Below the pieces are notes generated by a model. The model was not told the DNA's origin, ran no database searches, and worked only from the letters and a program-made list of their open reading frames with translations. Positions 6,919 to 20,611 of a DNA stretch of 64,000 bases are shown here, piece by piece. This DNA is from Methylocystis echinoides (GTDB lineage Bacteria; Pseudomonadota; Alphaproteobacteria; Rhizobiales; Beijerinckiaceae), in the NCBI RefSeq assembly GCF_040687965.1, contig NZ_CP156084.1, positions 1,440,501 to 1,504,500 on the forward strand, written 5' to 3'. Within the stretch, counting starts at the first letter, position 1; each line of letters starts with the position of its first letter. The translations under genes and the position numbers were made by a program.

Positions 6919-8157
6919 GTGACCAAGCCGCTTCCCAATTCCTTCCGCGCCGGCCCGGACGAGAACGGCCGCTTCGGCATTTTCGGCGGCCGTTTCGTCG
7001 CCGAGACCTTGATGCCGCTCGTGCTCGACCTCGAACAGGCCTATGCGGACGCCAAGGACGATCCGGCCTTCCACGAGGAGCTCAAGGGACTCCACAAGCA
7101 TTACGTGGGACGCCCCTCGCCGCTCTATTTCGCCGAGCGCATCACCGACTATGTGCGGGAGAAGGCCGAGCCCGGCAAAGGCGCCAAGGTCTATTTCAAG
7201 CGCGACGAGCTCAATCACACCGGCGCGCACAAGATCAACAATGTGCTGGGGCAGATTCTGCTCGCGCGGCGCATGGGCAAGAAGCGCATCATCGCCGAGA
7301 CGGGCGCGGGCCAGCATGGCGTCGCCACAGCGACCGCCTGCGCGCGCTTCGGCCTGCAATGCGTCGTCTATATGGGCGCAGTCGACGTCGAGCGTCAGAA
7401 GCCGAACGTCTTCCGCATGAAAATGCTCGGGGCCGAAGTCATTCCCGTGCAGTCGGGCGCGCGCACCCTGAAGGATGCGATGAACGAGGCGCTGCGCGAT
7501 TGGGTGACCAATGTCGCCGACACCTTCTACTGCATCGGCACGGCCGCCGGCCCGCATCCCTATCCGGCGATGGTGCGCGACTTCCAGTCGATCATCGGCA
7601 ATGAAACGCGCGTCCAGATGCAGGAGATGGAGGGGCGTCTGCCCGATTCGCTCGTCGCCTGCATCGGCGGCGGCTCCAACGCCATCGGCCTCTTCCACCC
7701 CTTCCTCGACGACCCTTCCGTCGAGATCTACGGCGTCGAGGCGGCCGGCCACGGCATTAGCGTGCCCAACGGCCACGCCGCCTCGCTCACCGGCGGCAAG
7801 CCGGGCGTGCTGCACGGCAACCGCACCTATCTCTTGATGGACGATGACGGCCAGATTCTCGAGGGCCATTCGATCTCGGCGGGCCTCGATTATCCCGGCA
7901 TCGGGCCGGAGCACAGCTGGCTGCACGAGACGGGCCGCGTCACCTACATCAGCGCGACCGACAAGGAGGCGCTCGCCGCCTTCCAGCTCTGCTCCAAGCT
8001 CGAAGGCATCATACCGGCGCTCGAACCCTCGCACGCGCTCGCCAAGGTGCTCGACCTCGCGCCGCAGAAGCCCATGGATCACCTCATGGTGATGAACATG
8101 TGCGGCCGCGGCGACAAAGACATTTTCACCGTCGCCGAGCATCTCGGCGGGATGTGA
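6919..8157 (+). CDS. trpB: Tryptophan synthase beta chain
   Basis: TrpB condenses indole with serine to tryptophan using PLP. The 412-residue protein has the PLP-lysine motif [10 protein letters not shown] (Lys near residue 105), the [11 protein letters not shown] loop, and the glycine-rich phosphate-binding [10 protein letters not shown]. Translation starts with GTG at 6919, preceded by GAGAGGA at 6903-6909, a well-placed ribosome binding site. The alpha subunit gene trpA, which usually follows trpB, is not next: the downstream gene is convergent and unrelated. Confidence 0.97.
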
Positions 8158-8172
8158 TCCCTGGCGGGCGTC

Positions 8173-8195
8173 ATGGCCGGGCTTGTCCCGGCCAT
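8173..8195. repeat. REP-type hairpin between convergent genes
   Basis: A perfect 9-bp stem, ATGGCCGGG at 8173-8181 and CCCGGCCAT at 8187-8195, encloses a 5-base loop CTTGT. It lies between trpB and the convergent acyltransferase gene. The sequence is the core of a palindrome often dispersed in rhizobial genomes and resembles the stem next to trpF. It could serve as a bidirectional transcription stop, although it lacks a T run. Confidence 0.55.
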
Positions 8196-8232
8196 CAAGC
8201 CCAAGGCCAAGCGCGGCGCTGACAGGCGCCGG

Positions 8233-9144
8233 CTATCTGGCCATGCACCGACGCGCCATTTCCTGTAGTCGCCGCCCGCGTTCGGCGTCGTCTCGCGCCC
8301 CGTCGAGCGCCTTGCCGCTTATCGCCTCCTTTGCCGTGCAGACGCAGAAGCTGTGACAATAGGCCTGCGTCGAACCCTCATCGACGCAGCTTCTCTCGCA
8401 TGCGGCGATGAAGTCGCGCGTATCCTCCGCCGGCGGCGCGACGATCAGCAGCGCCGTGAACAGGCCGAAGAGCAGCGGCTGATGCAGGAGATAGATCAGC
8501 AGGCTGTGACGGCCGAGAAAGGGCAGCGCGCTTTTCCTTCCGCGCGCGACGGGCTGGACCTTGAACGTCAACAAAGGAACGAACGCCCGCGCCGCCGCCA
8601 CGCCCAGCAGCATGGCCCCCGCCCAGGGAAAGAGCGGCCGCCAATCCTGCGTCAGCGGCTCGACCGTCCCGAGGCCCAGCCATTGCAGCCAATGTGAATT
8701 GAACGCGGACGACGCGACGATGTAAGGCGCGGCGAAGAAGGCCGCGCCGGCCGCGAGCGCCGCCGACCAGGGCAGGAGCAGGAAGGGAAGCGACAGCAGA
8801 CTCGCCGCCGCGATGCAATGCAGAATGCCAAAGAACACGAAGGCGCTCGGGAAAACGACGTAGGTCCCGACGCTCACCAGCGCCGCCGCCCCGGCGACGA
8901 CGGCGAAGCGGCGCCAGAAGGCGTCCCAGCAAATCCCGTTGCGGTGGGCGAGAACGAGCGAGGCGCCGGCGATGAACAGAAACGCGAAGGCGATGGAATG
9001 GCCGAAGGCCTTCACCGGCGCGGACCACGGGATCGTGCGCTCGATATAGCCGAAATGCCCCAGGTCCCAGATCAGATGAAAGACGACCATCGCCAGAACG
9101 GCGAGCCCGCGCGCCGCATCGAGAGCGCCCCAGCGCGCCGTCAT
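8233..9144 (-). CDS. DUF1624 membrane acyltransferase (heparan-alpha-glucosaminide N-acetyltransferase-like)
   Basis: This 303-residue polytopic membrane protein begins MTARWGALDAARGLAVLAM, with the R-x-DAARGLA-type opening typical of DUF1624 and related membrane acyltransferases that acylate sugars. About seven hydrophobic helices follow, including LGRHSLLIYLLHQPLLFGL near the C-terminus, another family hallmark. A Cys-containing tail (CERSCVDEG, CHSFCVCTAKE) follows the last helix, probably exposed and unusual. The start at 9144 overlaps the stop of the preceding gene by 4 bp (ATGA), so it is the last gene of the six-gene minus-strand operon. It probably adds an acyl group to the glycan made by that operon. 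Confidence 0.75.
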   Translation of the reverse strand: MTARWGALDAARGLAVLAMVVFHLIWDLGHFGYIERTIPWSAPVKAFGHSIAFAFLFIAGASLVLAHRNGICWDAFWRRFAVVAGAAALVSVGTYVVFPSAFVFFGILHCIAAASLLSLPFLLLPWSAALAAGAAFFAAPYIVASSAFNSHWLQWLGLGTVEPLTQDWRPLFPWAGAMLLGVAAARAFVPLLTFKVQPVARGRKSALPFLGRHSLLIYLLHQPLLFGLFTALLIVAPPAEDTRDFIAACERSCVDEGSTQAYCHSFCVCTAKEAISGKALDGARDDAERGRRLQEMARRCMAR

Positions 9145-10112
9145 TTCGCCGGCGCGCCCTGGAATTTCGAGAACACCATGTCCGGCGCCGAAAGATTGTG
9201 GCGCGACGGCAGATGGCGGCCGACCCAGACTTCCGTGGCGCTGGCGCCGGGAAAGTCGATGACCGGCGCCTCCTCCCAGCCCTTGCCGCGCTTGGAGCGC
9301 CACGCGACGATGGCGGCGTCGCTCATCGTCTCCATGGCGTACATGGAGCGCAGCGCCGCGAAGGGCCGCCCGCCCGGCATGGCGTCGCTGAAGGAGATAT
9401 CGAGCGTCAGCCGCTCCTGATCGATGCTTTTCAACGCCAGCCGCGCCTCGCCGCCGCGCTTGAACTTCAGGGAGAAGCTGCGTGACGCCGGATCGAAGGC
9501 GATCTCCTCGAGAGCGACCATCGGGCGTTCCTGCGTCTCCACGGGACCGACGAGGAAGGAAGAGCCATAGGCCGTCCAGCGCATATCCTCGAAGGGCAGC
9601 GGCCGCGCGCGCCAGTAGCCGTCGGGAGGATAGAAGACCATGATCTCCTCGGCGCGCTCGCGATACCACATCCAGAACTGCACCAGATGGAACCCCTGCT
9701 CGACCGTGTCGCCGACGCGGATCGGCACGTCGTTCTGCCGCCAGAAGGAGGGGAACGTATAGCCGGTCATCCAGAATTCCGGCGTCTCCCAGAAGGTGCG
9801 CCGGCGCGCCTGAGCGAAGAATTTCGGATCATGCGAGAGATCGCAGCTCGACCAGTCCGGGGCCCAGCGGTCGGAGACGATGGTGTTGATATAGGAAGGG
9901 TGCACCGCCTGGATTTGCAGGCTGCGAATCCGCGCCGAGACGAAGTCGAGTTCGATATTGTCCTTTTCGGCGCAAAGCTCGGGCACGGACCTGTTGTCGA
10001 CGCGGACCTGAAGCTCGTCGAGAAGCTCCTGCGTGGAGGGTTGCGCGAGGGCGGGCGAGGCGGCGAGCGCGCCGGCGCCCATGAGAAAGCGGCGGCGATC
10101 GAATGCGGTCAA
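9141..10112 (-). CDS. Tat-exported protein of unknown function
   Basis: The protein opens TAFDRRRFLMGAGALAASPALAQ, a classic twin-arginine signal with an A-x-A cleavage site, followed by about 300 mostly soluble residues rich in Trp and aromatic residues (for example FWMTGYTFPSFW, VQFWMWYRERAEE). I do not recognise a catalytic family; it is not a periplasmic glucan synthase by length or motifs. I set the start at a TTG (10110-10112) just before the Tat motif; an ATG at 10081-10083 would remove the twin arginines. Much longer open-frame extensions overlap the upstream gene and look non-coding. Its operon position suggests a periplasmic role in glycan handling. Confidence 0.6.
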   Translation of the reverse strand: MTAFDRRRFLMGAGALAASPALAQPSTQELLDELQVRVDNRSVPELCAEKDNIELDFVSARIRSLQIQAVHPSYINTIVSDRWAPDWSSCDLSHDPKFFAQARRRTFWETPEFWMTGYTFPSFWRQNDVPIRVGDTVEQGFHLVQFWMWYRERAEEIMVFYPPDGYWRARPLPFEDMRWTAYGSSFLVGPVETQERPMVALEEIAFDPASRSFSLKFKRGGEARLALKSIDQERLTLDISFSDAMPGGRPFAALRSMYAMETMSDAAIVAWRSKRGKGWEEAPVIDFPGASATEVWVGRHLPSRHNLSAPDMVFSKFQGAPAK

Positions 10113-10155
10113 GGTTTTCGTCCCGTTTCCAAAGGTGACCGGAAAGTCGCCGTCT

Positions 10156-11967
10156 CTATTCCACGGGTCTGAGGGCGAAAACAAGGAGCGGCGCGCCATC
10201 CGGCGAAAGTCGCTCCAGCCAGAGGGGAGCCTCGCCGCGCTCGAGCATGGCGGCAAGCCCCGCGGGCGCGGCCGTCGCGAGCGGCGAGGGCTCGCCCGTC
10301 GCCGCGCACCACAAGACGAGCCCCGCCCCCGCCCTGCGCGCGAGACCCTCGGCCTTCTCCGGCGGGGCGAGGAAAATATCCGCGGCGATCCGGTTGCCGT
10401 GGTTGTTGCGGTGATAGGGCGCGGCGAAAACGCTGTGCGCCGTATGCGCGAGGACATGGCTGCCGAGGCTGAACGACGCAAGCACGCGGGACGGCGGCAA
10501 TGTGGCGAGAAAGTCGAAGGCGTGCGGCTTCAGGCAGGCGCGCTCGCCCCCCGGCCCGGCCGCCTCGCTCGAGGACAGGGCGAGGGCGAGGCCAATGGGG
10601 GAGACGAGGGCGCAGACGACGCCGACGAGCGCGGCGCGCAGGGCGGACGCGACCTCCAAGGGCGCAAGGACGCGGACGATCGCCGCGGCCAGCGGCGCCA
10701 TGGCCAGCGGGGTCGCCGAGGAGAAGACGCGTATCTGCCACATCCCGGCGGCGAGGCCGACGCCGATGGCGCCGGCGACGAGGAGCCAGCGCCGGCGCGC
10801 CAGCCCGTGGGCGAACCCGGCAAAGGCGAGGGCGCAGCAAAGCCCCAGGGCGACAGGCAGGGCGACGGCGACAGAGGCGCCCGGGCTCTTTGCGAAGATG
10901 GAGGAGAGCGACAGCGCCTCGGTCACATGGGCGAGCCAAAGCTGCCGCAGCAAAGGATCGAGGCCGCCGAGCGGATCGCCCAGACAGTGCGGCGCGACGA
11001 GGAGCGGTCCGGCGAGACTGGCCGCGCCCGCGACGAGGAGGACGCCCGCGCGGGCGCGGGCGGTCGCGAGCTGCGGCGCAAGCGCCGCCAGGACGAGGAG
11101 GGCGAGGCCGCCGGCGAGGATCGCCGCGAGATGCACGATCGAAAATGCGTCGCAGGCCAGCTGCAGATAGGCGGCGCGCGGGACGGTCGCGACGTAAAGC
11201 GCCGGGAAGGCGACGAGCGCGCCGGCGGCGAAGCAAAGGAGCTGGGCGCGCGCCGCCGCGCCGTCGCGGACGAACAGCAGCGCCGGCGCAGACGCCATCA
11301 CAATGAAAAAGGGCAAGTTCTCCAGGCTGATCGCCAGGGACAGCGCCATCAACGCGGCGCAGACGGCGAGGCGCGGCGCCTGGCGCGGGTCGAGGCCCTG
11401 CAGCAGGAAACACAGCGCCGCCAGGAGCGTTACGATCTGGGGCGCGTGATGGTCGATACGGCCGGGCGCAAACTGGAGGAACATGGGGCCGGAGAGCGCC
11501 GTCAGCCAGATCGCCGCATGACGCGTCGCCGCGCCTGACAGGAGCGCGGCGAGCCAACCCGCAAGCGCGAGAAGCGCGGCGAGAAGCGCGAAGGGAAAAA
11601 CGAGGCGCGTCGCGCGCTCGGCGAATTCGGGGGAGAGGAAGGCGCGGAAAGCGAGAGTCAAACCGGCGAGCGGAACGTCGACGACGCGCGACCAGTGCGT
11701 GATCTGGCCCGATGGCGGATCGAGCCGATAGGCGGTGAGATCGAACCAGCCCTGGCCGGCGAGAAAGTCGCGCAGCTGAACGGCGCGCATGGCGTCGTCG
11801 GAGTCGAAAAAAGCGCCGGCGCCCCAGACCGCCTCGATCTGTGGAAAGACGAGCAGCGCCGCGCAGGAAAGCAGGGCTGCAATCATAAGGACGGAGAGGG
11901 AGCGGTCCCCGCCAGATGACACGCGGGGGGATTCGCTCGGATTGCCGGTCGGCGCGGATGCAAGCAT
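10156..11967 (-). CDS. STT3/GT-C-like polytopic membrane glycosyltransferase
   Basis: This 603-residue protein has about a dozen hydrophobic helices. After the first helix is a DSDDAMR motif (residues 55-61), then RDFLAGQGWFD and HWSR (91-94), and later GRIDHHAPQ with DHH at 172-174. An acidic first external loop followed by a DHH motif resembles the STT3/PglB/AglB branch of GT-C enzymes, which use polyprenyl-linked sugars and transfer them outside the membrane. The start at 11967 has AGAAGG seven bases upstream; longer extensions run into the upstream gene. The substrate is unknown. STT3-like is my inference; a generic GT-C fold is the safer call. Confidence 0.65.
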   Translation of the reverse strand: MLASAPTGNPSESPRVSSGGDRSLSVLMIAALLSCAALLVFPQIEAVWGAGAFFDSDDAMRAVQLRDFLAGQGWFDLTAYRLDPPSGQITHWSRVVDVPLAGLTLAFRAFLSPEFAERATRLVFPFALLAALLALAGWLAALLSGAATRHAAIWLTALSGPMFLQFAPGRIDHHAPQIVTLLAALCFLLQGLDPRQAPRLAVCAALMALSLAISLENLPFFIVMASAPALLFVRDGAAARAQLLCFAAGALVAFPALYVATVPRAAYLQLACDAFSIVHLAAILAGGLALLVLAALAPQLATARARAGVLLVAGAASLAGPLLVAPHCLGDPLGGLDPLLRQLWLAHVTEALSLSSIFAKSPGASVAVALPVALGLCCALAFAGFAHGLARRRWLLVAGAIGVGLAAGMWQIRVFSSATPLAMAPLAAAIVRVLAPLEVASALRAALVGVVCALVSPIGLALALSSSEAAGPGGERACLKPHAFDFLATLPPSRVLASFSLGSHVLAHTAHSVFAAPYHRNNHGNRIAADIFLAPPEKAEGLARRAGAGLVLWCAATGEPSPLATAAPAGLAAMLERGEAPLWLERLSPDGAPLLVFALRPVE

Positions 11968-11983
11968 GATCGACCTTCTTCGC

Positions 11984-13537
11984 CTATTTCCCCTCCATGA
12001 GCGCAAAGCCCGGCCAACATTGGCGCTGCTCGATCTCCAACCGGCGCCCCTGCGTGCTGACGAGCCAGGCCGGCGCTTTCTCGACATGCGCGAGATAATT
12101 GGAGGGCAGCGGATAGGAAAGAATTTTGCCGGTCGCCGTCAGCAGATTGCAGTCGTTGATTTCATACGGCGGATCGGAAAGCGCGCGCCTGATTTCCATC
12201 GTGGCGGTCATCGCGGACGCCATCACGATCGCCAGCGTCGCGACTGCATAGGCGCGGCGACCGTCGATCAGGCGCGGCGCCACCTCCGCAAAGATGACCC
12301 CGAGTAGGAACATCGGCGTCAAAATCCCACGCATCGCCATCTCATTGTCGAGCGACGTCGCGCCGAACCGATAGAGAGGAAAAAGAACGAGGATGACGCC
12401 AACGGCGAAAAAGGTCGGTTTGAGCCGATCGGGGATTTCCTTTCGCGCCAGCAGCAACAGCCATAACTGAGGAAGGCCGAAGACAAGCGCCAGCGGATAC
12501 CAGAGGAAGAAGCTCTGTTTCTCGAAAAGCCAGCCCCTACTGAGCGTCGCCGCGTCGAGAGAGAAATAGGCGAGAAGCGGCAGCATGAAAGCGCCCCCCA
12601 GCGCTGCGACCGCCGTGCGTGGTCGCAAGAGCGCCGGAGAGAGACTTTTCCAGCCGGCGGCCAGAAGCAGGGGCGCCGCGCCGATCAACGAAAGCGGCGA
12701 CCAGAACAACAGGATAATCGAACTGATCGCCAAGATTGCAATATCGATTTCCCGTCCCATGCGGAGGAGGCATAACGTCCCGATCATCCAGCCGGAGAAA
12801 GCGTGGTTGGGGGCCCAAAAGAGTTGAGGCAGCTGCGCCCAAAACGAAGCCAACGGGTTCCAGAACATGAAGTGCGGGTGAACGACCTCACCCTTCAACA
12901 GACATTGGACCAGCTGCGGGACGGCGTCCATCGGACCGGACATGAGGAAGAGCGCCAGGAAACGCAGCTTCAATCCACTGGTGAGAGAGGCGAGCAGATA
13001 AAAAATCGCGCCGAACAGGAACGCATTCTGCAAGAGCAGGGCGAGATGCGCGGCCCTGAGCCCATAGGCCCAGCCGATCGCCGCCGGCGCCATATACATG
13101 GCAAGCGGCGCGCGCAAGACGAAATCCGCGCCCTGATAGCGATAAAGCACCGGGAACTTGTTGTTGACGAGATCGGCGAGCACCGCGTCGCGCGTGTACC
13201 AATCCCATGTGGCGTAGAAGAGATGGTCTTCGCCGCCCAGCAGGCAAAGCGCAAGGCTTATCGCCAGACAGCCTGCGTAAAGCGAGAAATCGAGCGGCGC
13301 GGAAAGGCGTTCGCCGGGCGCCCAACCCCAGAGGATCAGGGCGGCGATGAGAGCCCCGCCCGTCAACAGGCTCGCGGCGGCGAGTGGTTGCAGGAAAATC
13401 GCGAAGATGGCGATCGGCGCCAAAGCGCAAAGCAGGGTCGCCTTGACGAGGCCGGCGTTGCTTACGCGTAGCCGCCGCAGCGTCGCCGGGCGCTCGAGGT
13501 CCGGCCAGGGACGTTCCCGTGAGACAATATCGCTCAT
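11984..13537 (-). CDS. Polytopic membrane protein of unknown function, GT-C-like
   Basis: The 517-residue protein has about eleven hydrophobic segments and a soluble C-terminal end. A loop after the third helix contains DWYTRDAVLADLVNNKFP followed by RYQGADFVLRAP, reminiscent of the acidic external loop of GT-C sugar transferases, but I cannot place it in a named family. It lies 17 bp upstream of the STT3-like gene and 44 bp downstream of gtrA-like, on the same strand. I start at ATG 13537; a TTG three codons upstream is possible. Codon use and composition resemble its neighbours. Confidence 0.6.
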   Translation of the reverse strand: MSDIVSRERPWPDLERPATLRRLRVSNAGLVKATLLCALAPIAIFAIFLQPLAAASLLTGGALIAALILWGWAPGERLSAPLDFSLYAGCLAISLALCLLGGEDHLFYATWDWYTRDAVLADLVNNKFPVLYRYQGADFVLRAPLAMYMAPAAIGWAYGLRAAHLALLLQNAFLFGAIFYLLASLTSGLKLRFLALFLMSGPMDAVPQLVQCLLKGEVVHPHFMFWNPLASFWAQLPQLFWAPNHAFSGWMIGTLCLLRMGREIDIAILAISSIILLFWSPLSLIGAAPLLLAAGWKSLSPALLRPRTAVAALGGAFMLPLLAYFSLDAATLSRGWLFEKQSFFLWYPLALVFGLPQLWLLLLARKEIPDRLKPTFFAVGVILVLFPLYRFGATSLDNEMAMRGILTPMFLLGVIFAEVAPRLIDGRRAYAVATLAIVMASAMTATMEIRRALSDPPYEINDCNLLTATGKILSYPLPSNYLAHVEKAPAWLVSTQGRRLEIEQRQCWPGFALMEGK

Positions 13538-13580
13538 CGCAAGCACTCGTCGAAAAGGGTCGCGTCCCAGCCAGAGCGTT

Positions 13581-14030
13581 TCAAGGCGCCGTCTTGAACA
13601 GCAGGCTGCGGCGCGAGACGAAATTGAACAGGAACACCACGCCGGCCGTCGCCGCCTTCGCGATTGTCAGCGGGAAGGCGAGGCGCGCCACGAAAAGATG
13701 CATGAGGCCCTCGGTCAGCAGCAGGCCGACGACGCCGGTCGTGAAGAAACCGACGACTTCGACGTGCGGCGCGCGCCGGCGCCTTCCCTCGAAGACGTAG
13801 CGGACACTGAGCGAATAGATCAGCGCGAGTCCGGCGAGAAAGCCCGCCGCGGCGGCGTGCAGATAATCGACGCCGAAGCTTTTCGTCAGGATCATGAGGA
13901 CGCCGTAATCCAGCGCGAGCGCCCCCAGGCTCGCCGCCCCGTAACGAAACATGTCGCGCAGGAACCGCAGGAGTCGCGCCGGCGCGAAGCGTGTGGAAAG
14001 CGCCCCTTGGGCGTCGGCGAAAGGCGACAT
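13581..14030 (-). CDS. GtrA family membrane protein
   Basis: GtrA proteins are four-helix membrane proteins thought to move or assist polyprenyl-phosphate-linked sugars in glycan modification. This 149-residue protein has four hydrophobic segments, the first with RYGAASLGALALDYGVL and the last ending FLFNFVSRRSLLF, both typical of the family. The ATG at 14030 sits 2 bases after the stop of the upstream oxidoreductase; a GTG at 14036 overlaps that stop as GTGA and could be used instead. A partner GtrB-type sugar transferase is not in this operon. Confidence 0.85.
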   Translation of the reverse strand: MSPFADAQGALSTRFAPARLLRFLRDMFRYGAASLGALALDYGVLMILTKSFGVDYLHAAAAGFLAGLALIYSLSVRYVFEGRRRRAPHVEVVGFFTTGVVGLLLTEGLMHLFVARLAFPLTIAKAATAGVVFLFNFVSRRSLLFKTAP

Positions 14031-14032
14031 GG

Positions 14033-15526
14033 TCACGCCACCCTGCGCGGAACCAGGCGCTCGCTCGACAGCGCTTCCTCCGCCCCCGAGACGCCGGCCT
14101 CGGAATATTCGGCGTCCTCGTTGACCTGCCAGACGTCGAAAAGCTCTTCGTCGCGGACGACGTTGAGCGCGGCGAGCATGCCGGTCATCATCGCGTGGTC
14201 CTGATTATTGTATTTGTGCATCCCGTTGCGGCCGATCGGATGCAGCGTGGGAAAGCGCGTCGCGATCTCGCGGCGAATGGCCTCGACGTTTTGCGCGTAA
14301 GCCTCGTCATAAACGGGATAGGCCTTCGCCTGACGCACGACGCAGGCGTCGGTCACGTCGTCGGGCGCCATCAAGCCGATCTGCCCGATCTCGCGCTTGG
14401 CGAGGTCAATCAGGTCTTCGTCGCGCGCCGACCAGAGGCCGTCGCCCTCGAAGCAAAAATATTCGAGGCCGAGGCAGGTGGAGACCCCGTCGGGGATCAT
14501 CTCCGGCGACCAGCTGCGAAAATTCTGCACGCGCCCAACCTTCACCGAAGGATCGTGAATGTAGATCCAGTTGTCGGGCAACTCCTGCTGCGGCCGGCCG
14601 ATCAGCACCACAGTGAGAAAGTCGCGATAGGCGAGCGCGCGCGCGTTGAAGAGGCTCAAGGGCGTCGGCGTGATCGCGTTCACGAGATCGCGCAGCGGCG
14701 CCGAAGACATCACATGGCGGGCGTGGAAAACCTCGATCGCGCCAGTGCTGTCCGTCGCGCTCACCGTCCAGAGCTTCGCGCTCTCGTCATAGGCGAGCGA
14801 CTCGACGCGGCGCCCCATCAACAACCGGCCGCCCATGTCCTGCATCTTGCGGGCGCAGGCGTCCCACATCATGCCGGGACCGCGGCGCGGATATCGGAAG
14901 GATTCGATCAGGGTCTTCGCGCCTGGCTCCCCGCCCCGGCGCAGGCCGAGCGAGCGGCGCAGGCCGTCGGCGATCGCCGCGCCGAGCGAGAGGCCCTTGA
15001 TGCGCTGCGCCGCCCAATCGGCGGAAATCTCGTCGCAGCCCATGCCCCACACTTTTTCCGTGTAGGTCTTGAAGAAAATGCCGAAGAGCCGCTCGCCGAA
15101 CTGATTGCGCACCCACGCGTGGAAGGTGCGCGGCGATTTGACGGGAAAGGCTTTCGCATAGGCGAAGGAGGCCATGCAGAGGGCGCTCTCGACGAGGCCG
15201 AGATTTTTGAGCGCCTCGAAGGCTTTCAGCGGATAGGCGTAAAACTTGCCCCGGTAGTAGATGCGCGAGAGACGCGGCCTTTCGAGAAAATCATCCGGCA
15301 GGATTTCGTTCCAGAGATCGACGATCTCCTTCGACTTCGAAAAGAAGCGATGGCCGCCGATGTCGAACAGAAAGCCCTTGTAGCTCGCCGTGCGGGAGAT
15401 GCCGCCGACATAGACCGGGTCCTGCTCCAGCACGAGCGCGCCGCGCCCCTGCTTCGCCAAAGTGTAGGCCGCGGTGAGGCCCGCCGGGCCCGCGCCGATG
15501 ATGATCGTCTCGATGATGTCGCCCAT
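14033..15526 (-). CDS. FAD-dependent oxidoreductase, UDP-galactopyranose mutase/amine oxidase-like
   Basis: The 497-residue protein begins with a dinucleotide-binding motif, IIIGAGPAGLTAAYTLA (about residues 8-24), followed by VGGISRT and FDIGGHRFFSKS, which are shared by UDP-galactopyranose mutases and protoporphyrinogen-oxidase-like flavoenzymes. A KVWGMGCDEISADWAAQRI segment is typical of the versions found in polysaccharide clusters. It is the first gene of the minus-strand six-gene operon, directly coupled to gtrA. It may isomerise or oxidise a nucleotide- or lipid-linked sugar. The exact substrate cannot be read from the sequence. Confidence 0.75.
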   Translation of the reverse strand: MGDIIETIIIGAGPAGLTAAYTLAKQGRGALVLEQDPVYVGGISRTASYKGFLFDIGGHRFFSKSKEIVDLWNEILPDDFLERPRLSRIYYRGKFYAYPLKAFEALKNLGLVESALCMASFAYAKAFPVKSPRTFHAWVRNQFGERLFGIFFKTYTEKVWGMGCDEISADWAAQRIKGLSLGAAIADGLRRSLGLRRGGEPGAKTLIESFRYPRRGPGMMWDACARKMQDMGGRLLMGRRVESLAYDESAKLWTVSATDSTGAIEVFHARHVMSSAPLRDLVNAITPTPLSLFNARALAYRDFLTVVLIGRPQQELPDNWIYIHDPSVKVGRVQNFRSWSPEMIPDGVSTCLGLEYFCFEGDGLWSARDEDLIDLAKREIGQIGLMAPDDVTDACVVRQAKAYPVYDEAYAQNVEAIRREIATRFPTLHPIGRNGMHKYNNQDHAMMTGMLAALNVVRDEELFDVWQVNEDAEYSEAGVSGAEEALSSERLVPRRVA

Positions 15527-15648
15527 GCTGGCCCTGAGGGCCTCGCGATTGACGCCGAGGCCGCTGTTCCCCGCGGAGCCACAATGGCTACGCTCCAGCC
15601 TTACTCTGGGCAGTCAAGGTTAAGACAAGCTTACGCTTCGGGCCGCTT

Positions 15649-16227
15649 TCAGTAGAACGGCAGCATGGGATGCGCCTGCCAGCCGCGCACGGTCCCGCGC
15701 GGGAGATGGCGAAGCGGCGCATAGGCGAGGGCATGGCCATGGCCGTGACGCAGGCTGGCGTAGCGGGCGGCGTTGGGACGCTGCGTCTTGGCGTAGCGGG
15801 TGGCGCGCGCCGGCGGCGCGCCGGTGATCGAAATGCTGCCGCCCTCGGCCTGCACGATCTCATAGAGGCGTTTCGCGTTCCCCGGCGAAAGGCGGACGCA
15901 GCCATGCGACGCCGGCCGGCCGAGAGCGCCCGTGGCATAGGTGCCGTGGATGGCGTAGCCGCCTCGGAAAAAGATCGAGTAAGGCATTGGCGACATGTGG
16001 TATTTTCGTGAATAATGCATGAGCTGCATGCCGGTCGGGGCATAGGAGCCGCGCGGCGTGTAATAGCCGGCGCGGGCGGTCGAGACCGGCCAGACATAGC
16101 TGCCCGCGCCGGACTCGACGCGCATGGTCTGGGTCGAAAGATCGATGTGAATATTGGCGGTGGCGTGGGCGGCGCCGAGCGAGGCGAAGAGCGCGGCCAG
16201 CACGAAAAAGACAAGTTTGAAACGCAT
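15649..16227 (-). CDS. L,D-transpeptidase (YkuD domain)
   Basis: This exported 192-residue enzyme forms or edits 3-3 crosslinks in peptidoglycan or anchors proteins to it. It has a cleavable signal peptide ending near AHATA and the YkuD catalytic region: IHGTYATGALGRPASHGCVRL, in two parts (HGTYATG and SHGCVRLS, the Cys being the nucleophile). The domain starts directly after the signal peptide with a short beta strand NIHIDLSTQTM. A His- and Arg-rich C-terminal stretch (RHGHGHALAYAPLRH) is unusual. It is transcribed divergently from mepA, another murein hydrolase. Confidence 0.9.
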   Translation of the reverse strand: MRFKLVFFVLAALFASLGAAHATANIHIDLSTQTMRVESGAGSYVWPVSTARAGYYTPRGSYAPTGMQLMHYSRKYHMSPMPYSIFFRGGYAIHGTYATGALGRPASHGCVRLSPGNAKRLYEIVQAEGGSISITGAPPARATRYAKTQRPNAARYASLRHGHGHALAYAPLRHLPRGTVRGWQAHPMLPFY

Positions 16228-19976: not shown

Positions 19977-20216
19977 ATGGCGACGACAAAGGTCTTTCGA
20001 TCCGGCAACAGTCTCGCGGTGCGCCTGCCGCGGGACATCGCGCCGCCCGAGGGCGCCGAGGTCGTGGTGACGCGCCAGGGCGAGAGCCTTCTCGTCTCCC
20101 CTGCCCGCCTCGACATGTCGACGCTGGTCGCGCGGCTGGGACGGGGGCCCGCGCCGGGACCGCTGGACCGGCCGGCGTTCAAGCCGCCGAAGCGGAACTG
20201 GCCGGAGGCCGACTGA
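19977..20216 (+). CDS. vapB: AbrB-fold antitoxin (VapB/MazE type)
   Basis: The 79-residue protein begins MATTKVFRSGNSLAVRLPRD, the swapped-hairpin AbrB fold of VapB and MazE antitoxins, followed by a tail rich in Pro and basic residues that should wrap the toxin. Its stop overlaps the toxin start as ATGA-type coupling (20214-20218, TGATG). A TTGACA at 19942-19947 lies 30 bases upstream and could be the -35 of an autoregulated promoter. It would neutralise the downstream PIN nuclease and repress its own operon. Confidence 0.85.
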   Translation: MATTKVFRSGNSLAVRLPRDIAPPEGAEVVVTRQGESLLVSPARLDMSTLVARLGRGPAPGPLDRPAFKPPKRNWPEAD

Positions 20217-20611
20217 TGGCGCGCTACCTGCTCGACGCCACGACGCTCTTCGCGGCGGCGAGCGGCGAGGCGGCGACGCTGGCGCGGCTCGCGCGGCTTC
20301 CGATCGGCGAGGTGGCGATCCCCGCCCTCGTCTACGCCGAGTTACTCGGCGCCGCGGCGGCGGCCGGCAAAAATGCGCGTCTTGCGGAAAATCTCAACCT
20401 GATCGCCCAGAACCTCGACATCTTGCCGTTCGATCGCAGGGCGGCGGAGGCCTATGGCGCGCTGCTGCGGGAGATCGAGCCCAAACGGCGGCGCATGCTC
20501 GACCGCCTGACCGCCGCGCAAGCCATCGCCGAGGACCGCACGCTCGCGACCCTCGCGCCGGAGGATTTCGCCGATCTTCCCGGCCTCTCGCTCGAAAGCT
20601 GGACGCCCTGA
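20216..20611 (+). CDS. vapC: PIN-domain toxin (VapC type) with divergent active-site end
   Basis: This 131-residue PIN-domain protein is the probable RNA-cutting partner of the AbrB antitoxin. Acidic residues at D7 (LLDATTL), E42 (YAELL) and D96 (MLDRLTAAQ) match three positions of the VapC metal site. The usual fourth position in a TNN-x-x-DF motif is replaced by ATLAPEDF, so that site is altered, though APEDF still offers Glu and Asp. It ends nine bases before the convergent prfB. It is active in principle, but a weakened or different cleavage activity is possible. Confidence 0.82.
   Translation: MARYLLDATTLFAAASGEAATLARLARLPIGEVAIPALVYAELLGAAAAAGKNARLAENLNLIAQNLDILPFDRRAAEAYGALLREIEPKRRRMLDRLTAAQAIAEDRTLATLAPEDFADLPGLSLESWTP

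Follow-up and report, generated by a model that had tools for sequence, protein, structure and literature searches.

A probably composite glycan locus in Methylocystis echinoides and a family of predicted AglB/STT3-fold membrane proteins

The stretch of DNA considered here (the window: 64,000 nt of Methylocystis echinoides contig NZ_CP156084.1, positions 1,440,501 to 1,504,500) contains six neighbouring minus-strand genes, named A to F in the order in which they are read (Table 1). They encode a flavoenzyme resembling UDP-galactopyranose mutase (UGM), a GtrA-family protein, two membrane proteins of predicted GT-C glycosyltransferase fold (C and D), an exported protein and an acyltransferase. 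A first, sequence-only reading took them for one envelope-glycan system, in which a polyprenyl-linked sugar is moved, transferred at the outer face and finally acylated. The locus is instead probably a composite of three units, namely an A-B-D cassette, an E-F pair and C, since these occur separately in other genomes.

The close packing of the genes is real: open reading frames (ORFs) overlap by 4 bp at A/B and E/F, and are separated by 34 bp (B/C), 16 bp (C/D) and 43 bp (D/E). The gaps of 2-44 bp given earlier depend on start choice, and the ORF caller misplaces some starts. A simple promoter scan of positions 8100-15700 found no site. The families first given to A, B and F were confirmed by models, with 905 bits for A against NF005545/PRK07208.1-1 (cut-off 451), 64.9 bits for B against PF04138 (gathering score 26.1) and 231.8 bits for F against PF07786 (gathering score 22), the HGSNAT_cat domain formerly called DUF1624. 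F shares this domain with the HGSNAT/DUF1624 acyltransferases, from which it differs in being bacterial and paired with an exported protein. The first reading could assign three of the six genes to no family; accordingly, neither Pfam nor NCBIfam (E<=1) nor PHROGs gives a match for C, D or E.

Table 1. Genes of the locus and its borders (positions in the window)
Gene	Description	Position	Strand	Model
A	UGM-like FAD oxidoreductase, PRK07208 family, 497 aa	14033..15526	-	NF005545
B	GtrA-family small membrane protein, probable polyprenyl-P-sugar flippase, 151 aa	13581..14036	-	PF04138
C	Predicted GT-C fold protein, 520 aa; its place between B and D is unique to this genome	11984..13546	-	
D	Predicted AglB/STT3-fold membrane glycosyltransferase, family without Pfam model, 603 aa	10156..11967	-	
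E	Exported protein, Tat-type signal, function-unknown family, 323 aa, TTG start	9141..10112	-	
F	HGSNAT_cat (DUF1624) membrane acyltransferase, 303 aa	8233..9144	-	PF07786
YkuD	L,D-transpeptidase; bounds the variable site on the left	15649..16227	-	PF03734
trpB (presumed)	Convergent with F; bounds the site on the right	6919..8157	+	

Separability was assessed in 199 genomes of the family (threshold for A, E<=1e-60; Fisher tests of co-occurrence uncorrected for phylogeny). A is present in 67 and D in 80 of them, both together in 56, and within 8 kb of each other in 28. In 12 genomes A, D and E form a contiguous series, always continued by F. B lies between A and D in the eight of these sets that were inspected (the window, G164, G188, G223, G234, G280, G291 and G309), and the A-D gap of the remaining four (about 480-590 bp) is too short for C, so that the window alone has C between B and D. 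E and F are present in 112 and 161 genomes, respectively, and E is associated neither with A (36 of 67 genomes with A, against 76 of 132 others) nor with D (46/80 against 66/119). Positions of E and F were compared in 98 genomes, and in 46 of them F immediately follows E (F coordinates were used in 111 of its 161 genomes, mostly ones that also have E, and the E-F pair was left out of the Fisher tests); 12 of these 46 have neither A nor D. E-F is probably a separate exported-protein/acyltransferase pair. The Tat export first proposed for E fits the protein of the window, which starts with RRRFLMG (read by eye), but not the whole family, as the alignment shows the twin arginine to be absent from some relatives, and some to start with a plain hydrophobic stretch. 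A PDB sequence search with the E profile was unproductive, and no plasmid record matches E.

Within the genus, the same site is found occupied or empty. Four genomes (G202, G259, G322 and G335) have the trpF-trpB / F-E / YkuD order of the window, yet gene calling finds nothing in the E-YkuD interval that holds A-B-C-D in the window. The F-trpB adjacency is common to loci L275-L278 and the window (L279 was excluded from the site comparison), and is not shared by G280 and G309, which have A-B-D between YkuD and E and genes other than trpB beyond F; in G164, A-B-D follows YkuD, then come E and F. A tree of E (22 sequences, L123 left out) mixes cassette-bearing and cassette-free genomes, with at least two changes forced by well-supported branches; it is compatible with either gain or loss of the cassette. 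Two small genes at 19977-20611 of the window, which we take to be AbrB-like and VapC-like, lie in a block that the window shares with G164, G280 and G309.

The predicted structure of D is a confident model of GT-C fold, specifically of the STT3/AglB type, with an STT3-type membrane part and a C-terminal globular domain; its best structural match is AglB, near full length and with the C-terminal domain included. The STT3-like character first suspected is supported by this structural comparison, of a kind named beforehand as its check, and the motifs DSDD, HWSR and DHH noticed at the same time are kept across 44 aligned D sequences (including the window's own): D57, D58, H91, W92, R94 and H173 are present in all 44, and D172 in 39. 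By alignment counts, candidates for the acidic DxD-type residues of the external loops and for the SVSE/TIXE glutamate are D57, D58 and E216, all three invariant, and E350, retained in 42. The tryptophans of the WWDYG motif are, in contrast, absent from all 44 sequences, with no W at 498-500 (a site placed by weak alignment); the family reads xPIDxG or SFSLG there, and position 500 is Asp in 31 sequences and Ser in the D of the window. D differs from AglB, STT3 and PglB (GT66, PF02516) in this site, in having no significant profile match to them, and in its neighbours, which are instead GtrA, GT2 or a flavoenzyme. No match to the Pfam STT3 model (PF02516) was found for the D of the window, and the copy of G147 reaches 19.4 bits (gathering score 24.5). 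PDB sequence searches with D alone or C alone gave nothing useful, and hhalign of D with C was equally unproductive. In the two annotated records examined, D is called "AcrB/AcrD/AcrF family protein" or "hypothetical protein", and a role as RND/AcrB pump was rejected, the model being of GT-C type. One D relative bearing the former name, from Sphingomonas parapaucimobilis (L288:7962-9731), stands beside GtrA and methyltransferase genes; the name does not suit the fold predicted for the D of the window.

Beyond the family, the D profile run against genomes matched at least 546 places, and the following figures refer to the best 80 of these 546, mostly Hyphomicrobiales by title. B was found at 7 of the 80 loci, E at 5, F at 5 and C at 2. 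Among the 54 loci spanning 15 kb or more, GtrA occurs at 34, a GT2 of one family at 33 and both at 28; the GtrA model was partly seeded from these loci, and one GtrA (L203) adjoins a C gene. The genome of M. echinoides has four GtrA genes in 4.35 Mb, from which about one of 54 loci would be expected to include GtrA by chance. The neighbouring GT2 family (36 members) matches TIGR04182 (AglJ) in 20 of 20 members tested, with 198 bits in one member, below the cut-off of 325. D faces an AglJ-related GT2 and GtrA in rhizobia; in Haloferax, according to passages of PMC3871713, AglJ helps to build a glycan on dolichol phosphate, which AglB transfers. One Bradyrhizobium locus has a 500-aa protein without Pfam match ahead of D (L245:6391-7893). 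A-B-D recurs in Novosphingobium, which belongs to a different order of bacteria: a plasmid of Novosphingobium sp. MBES04 carries A-GtrA-D (60, 29 and 30% identical), with no E, F or C seen within 11.9 kb, and plasmid pTHN (strain THN1) shows the same order, with A followed by a GtrA-like ORF and then a partial match to D. A literature search joining oligosaccharyltransferase, STT3 and alphaproteobacteria found nothing, and one on GtrA with FAD-dependent oxidoreductase found nothing but antibiotics work (by title); the D family and the cassette may nonetheless have been described before.

In PDB sequence searches A comes closest to the UDP-galactopyranose mutase of entry 4u8l (E 1.6e-22), presumably the A. 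fumigatus enzyme, judging from its residue numbering. Residues of A were mapped through the pairwise alignment with 4u8l, using the UGM contact-residue table of PMC3624792 (N207 and Y419 lie outside this mapping). Across 40 A sequences (including the window's own), the equivalents of H63, Y104, W167, R182, Y317, R327, Y453 and N457 are always retained; A thereby resembles Glf/UgmA in its tyrosines, in the redox histidine (H59 in A, for H63) and in the diphosphate arginines (R175 and R332, for R182 and R327), the latter being important for fungal UGM activity according to passages of PMC3893270. The position of N163 is T, as in DrUGM in the same contact table, and Q107 is replaced by K, R, N or S; the equivalent of F106 is L in the A of the window. 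Two side observations may be added: one contig (G184:C283, loci L145/L228) has three D copies around an A-GtrA pair, and on Methylomagnum plasmid pRS11DPr1 (L289), a relative of A (50%) shares 4 bp with a GT2 gene, their cluster also holding polyprenyl synthetase and DXS-like genes.

C, first described as GT-C-like, is supported as such by a confident predicted structure of GT-C fold, and may be placed in the GT-C superfamily; Foldseek alone gave no match at E<=0.001 and many transporter rows. Pfam found two chance-like matches and nothing else in 29 C members, a PDB sequence search with the C profile was unproductive, and a scan of genome contigs with C was uninformative. C is present in 27 of the 199 family genomes and in 1 of 150 genomes of an order-wide sample, that of the window itself. 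The nearest C gene of G164 (48% identical) lies outside its A-B-D-E-F set, between genes that we take to be VapC-like and RF2-like. At 31 C loci (including the window, whose GtrA lies outside the GtrA cluster used), GT2 was found within 4 kb at 18, and GT2 with GtrA at 13, these families having been checked by Pfam in one member each. C may have been co-opted, or merely inserted, between B and D. A C paralogue (38-41% identical) belongs to a second glycan cluster overlapping the start of the window (L008:7250-15524, G000:C1:1432750-1441024), with GT2, GtrA, epimerase, DegT aminotransferase and nucleotidyltransferase genes and an ORF that is presumably methyltransferase-like.

How could such a cassette work? 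We infer the catalytic steps, donor and acceptor as follows. A would make or rearrange an activated sugar, possibly from pyranose to furanose, a GT2 encoded elsewhere would load a sugar on polyprenyl phosphate, B would carry the lipid-linked sugar across the inner membrane, and D would transfer it to a periplasmic acceptor (envelope glycan, lipid or protein). E-F would have a separate function, the pair standing at the same site in genomes without A-B-D, and C would be a GT-C enzyme whose relatives are often accompanied by GT2 and GtrA, here standing between B and D. The envelope-glycan role first proposed, with flipping and transfer of a polyprenyl-linked sugar, fits the neighbours of D in other genera, whereas a final acylation within the same pathway is not supported. 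Passages of PMC7389260 describe three-component systems in which a glycosyltransferase makes C55-P-sugar, flipping is probably the task of a GtrA-family protein and transfer of the sugar that of a GT-C enzyme, and present the role of the mycobacterial GtrA protein Rv3789 as disputed (flippase or anchor). As in GtrABC and CsbB-GtcA-YfhO, GtrA lies beside a GT-C enzyme in the window, and GT2 is found at many D and C loci; unlike these systems, A-B-D of the window has a UGM-like flavoenzyme and no GT2. The full set of GT2, GtrA and GT-C is seen at 28 of the 54 D loci and 13 of the 31 C loci, and not in the window cassette. The mycobacterial arabinan route (DprE1, Rv3789 and Emb/Aft) shares the logic of flavoenzyme, GtrA and GT-C enzyme, but A is of UGM type, not DprE1 type, and D is nearer to AglB than to Emb/Aft. 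Elsewhere in the genome (L011, G000:C1:417000-430000), a GtrA gene lies near an ORF which we take to be of UbiA/DPPR-synthase type, and a decaprenyl-P-arabinose-like route may exist.

Several observations weigh against a composite built around an A-B-D sugar-transfer cassette. D occurs without A in 24 of its 80 family genomes and A without D in 11 of 67, and A is found at 9 of the best 80 of the 546 D loci. Another protein, F3 (unclassified, polytopic, 650 aa, no Pfam match; e.g. L142:7450-9405), is present in 40 of the 199 genomes and lies within 8 kb of A in 24 of the 37 that have both, often with GtrA between them (counts leaving out two rows from genomes already counted). No GT2 was found by Pfam or NCBIfam in the A-B-D set of the window, and the rhizobial GT2 had no match at E<=0.001 in the M. 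echinoides genome (a search without positive control), where PF00535 matches 13 times elsewhere. For A, the uracil contacts F106 and Q107 are altered, the Y453/N457 mapping comes from a weak second alignment stretch, two PF03275 (Glf) genes lie elsewhere in the genome, and the UGM equivalog TIGR00031 gives 35.4 bits (cut-off 303.75), as PF03275 gives 13.6 (cut-off 26.3); a role as the cell's ordinary Glf was rejected on account of the two other genes. Since UGM residues are kept and curated UGM scores lie below cut-off, A is classed by its sequence as UGM-like, not as a curated UGM. For D, one of the 44 members matches STT3 at E 0.071 and one matches PMT_2 at 0.01, and hhalign of its profile with five bacterial PF02516-type proteins gave no significant match (probability 2.4%). 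With such stray hits, the kinship of D with STT3/AglB comes mainly from the predicted fold, and fold alone shows no function.

Other explanations have to be weighed against the composite. That all six genes form one pathway, in which the sugar is made, flipped, transferred by C and D, and acylated by F aided by E, is very improbable. It draws on the single strand, the A/B and E/F overlaps, the short gaps and the 12 genomes with A, D, E and F, and is contradicted by C lying between B and D in one alone of those 12, by the indifference of E to A, by the four same-genus genomes with E-F beside YkuD and no A-D genes, and by the 12 adjacent E-F pairs without A and D. The six genes do not co-occur and stay together in relatives, and the single-system idea, failing because A-B-D, E-F and C are separable across genomes, is already largely refuted by co-occurrence. 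As for D, it is rather unlikely to be a true oligosaccharyltransferase acting on asparagines of exported proteins, like AglB and PglB: the near full-length AglB match and the AglJ-like GT2 of rhizobia, with AglJ and AglB of Haloferax sharing a dolichol-phosphate carrier in passages of PMC3871713, speak for it, but the missing WWDYG tryptophans speak against an ordinary N-sequon enzyme, PF02516 matches one member in 44, and the gene set of the window is devoid of an oligosaccharide-assembly cluster. A classical N-oligosaccharyltransferase was accordingly rejected on its missing tryptophans and retained merely as a rival. There is about an even chance that D is a monosaccharide transferase in the manner of ArnT, GtrC or DPY19, with lipid A, core or O-chain as its acceptor; AglB matches it better, C-terminal domain included, and no acceptor gene was identified, in loci not searched for lipid A genes. 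Finally, A could, with lesser probability, be another redox flavoenzyme (e.g. a desaturase or dehydratase of lipid or sugar) and no mutase, as suggested by its weak similarity to phytoene desaturase and HpnE models and its UGM scores, and opposed by the arginines and histidine retained in all 40 sequences.

Taken together, interest centres on the D family and its A-B partners. It can be suggested, tentatively, that D founds a new AglB/STT3-type family across Hyphomicrobiales and Sphingomonadales, mis- or unannotated so far, which in rhizobia would join an AglJ-like GT2 and GtrA in a bacterial equivalent of the polyprenyl-monophosphate route of haloarchaea, and to which Methylocystis, Methylosinus and Novosphingobium add a UGM-like flavoenzyme; a furanose may in that case go to proteins or another acceptor at the site replacing WWDYG. 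The locus also cautions that overlapping co-directional genes need not form one pathway. The occurrence of the A-B-D cassette and of its empty site in one genus makes the product directly testable across natural strains. D would thus stand for predicted AglB-fold transferases that are missed by the Pfam STT3 model in many Hyphomicrobiales genomes, and for an extensive group of surface-glycan enzymes, apparently unclassified, among bacteria that fix nitrogen or oxidise methane.

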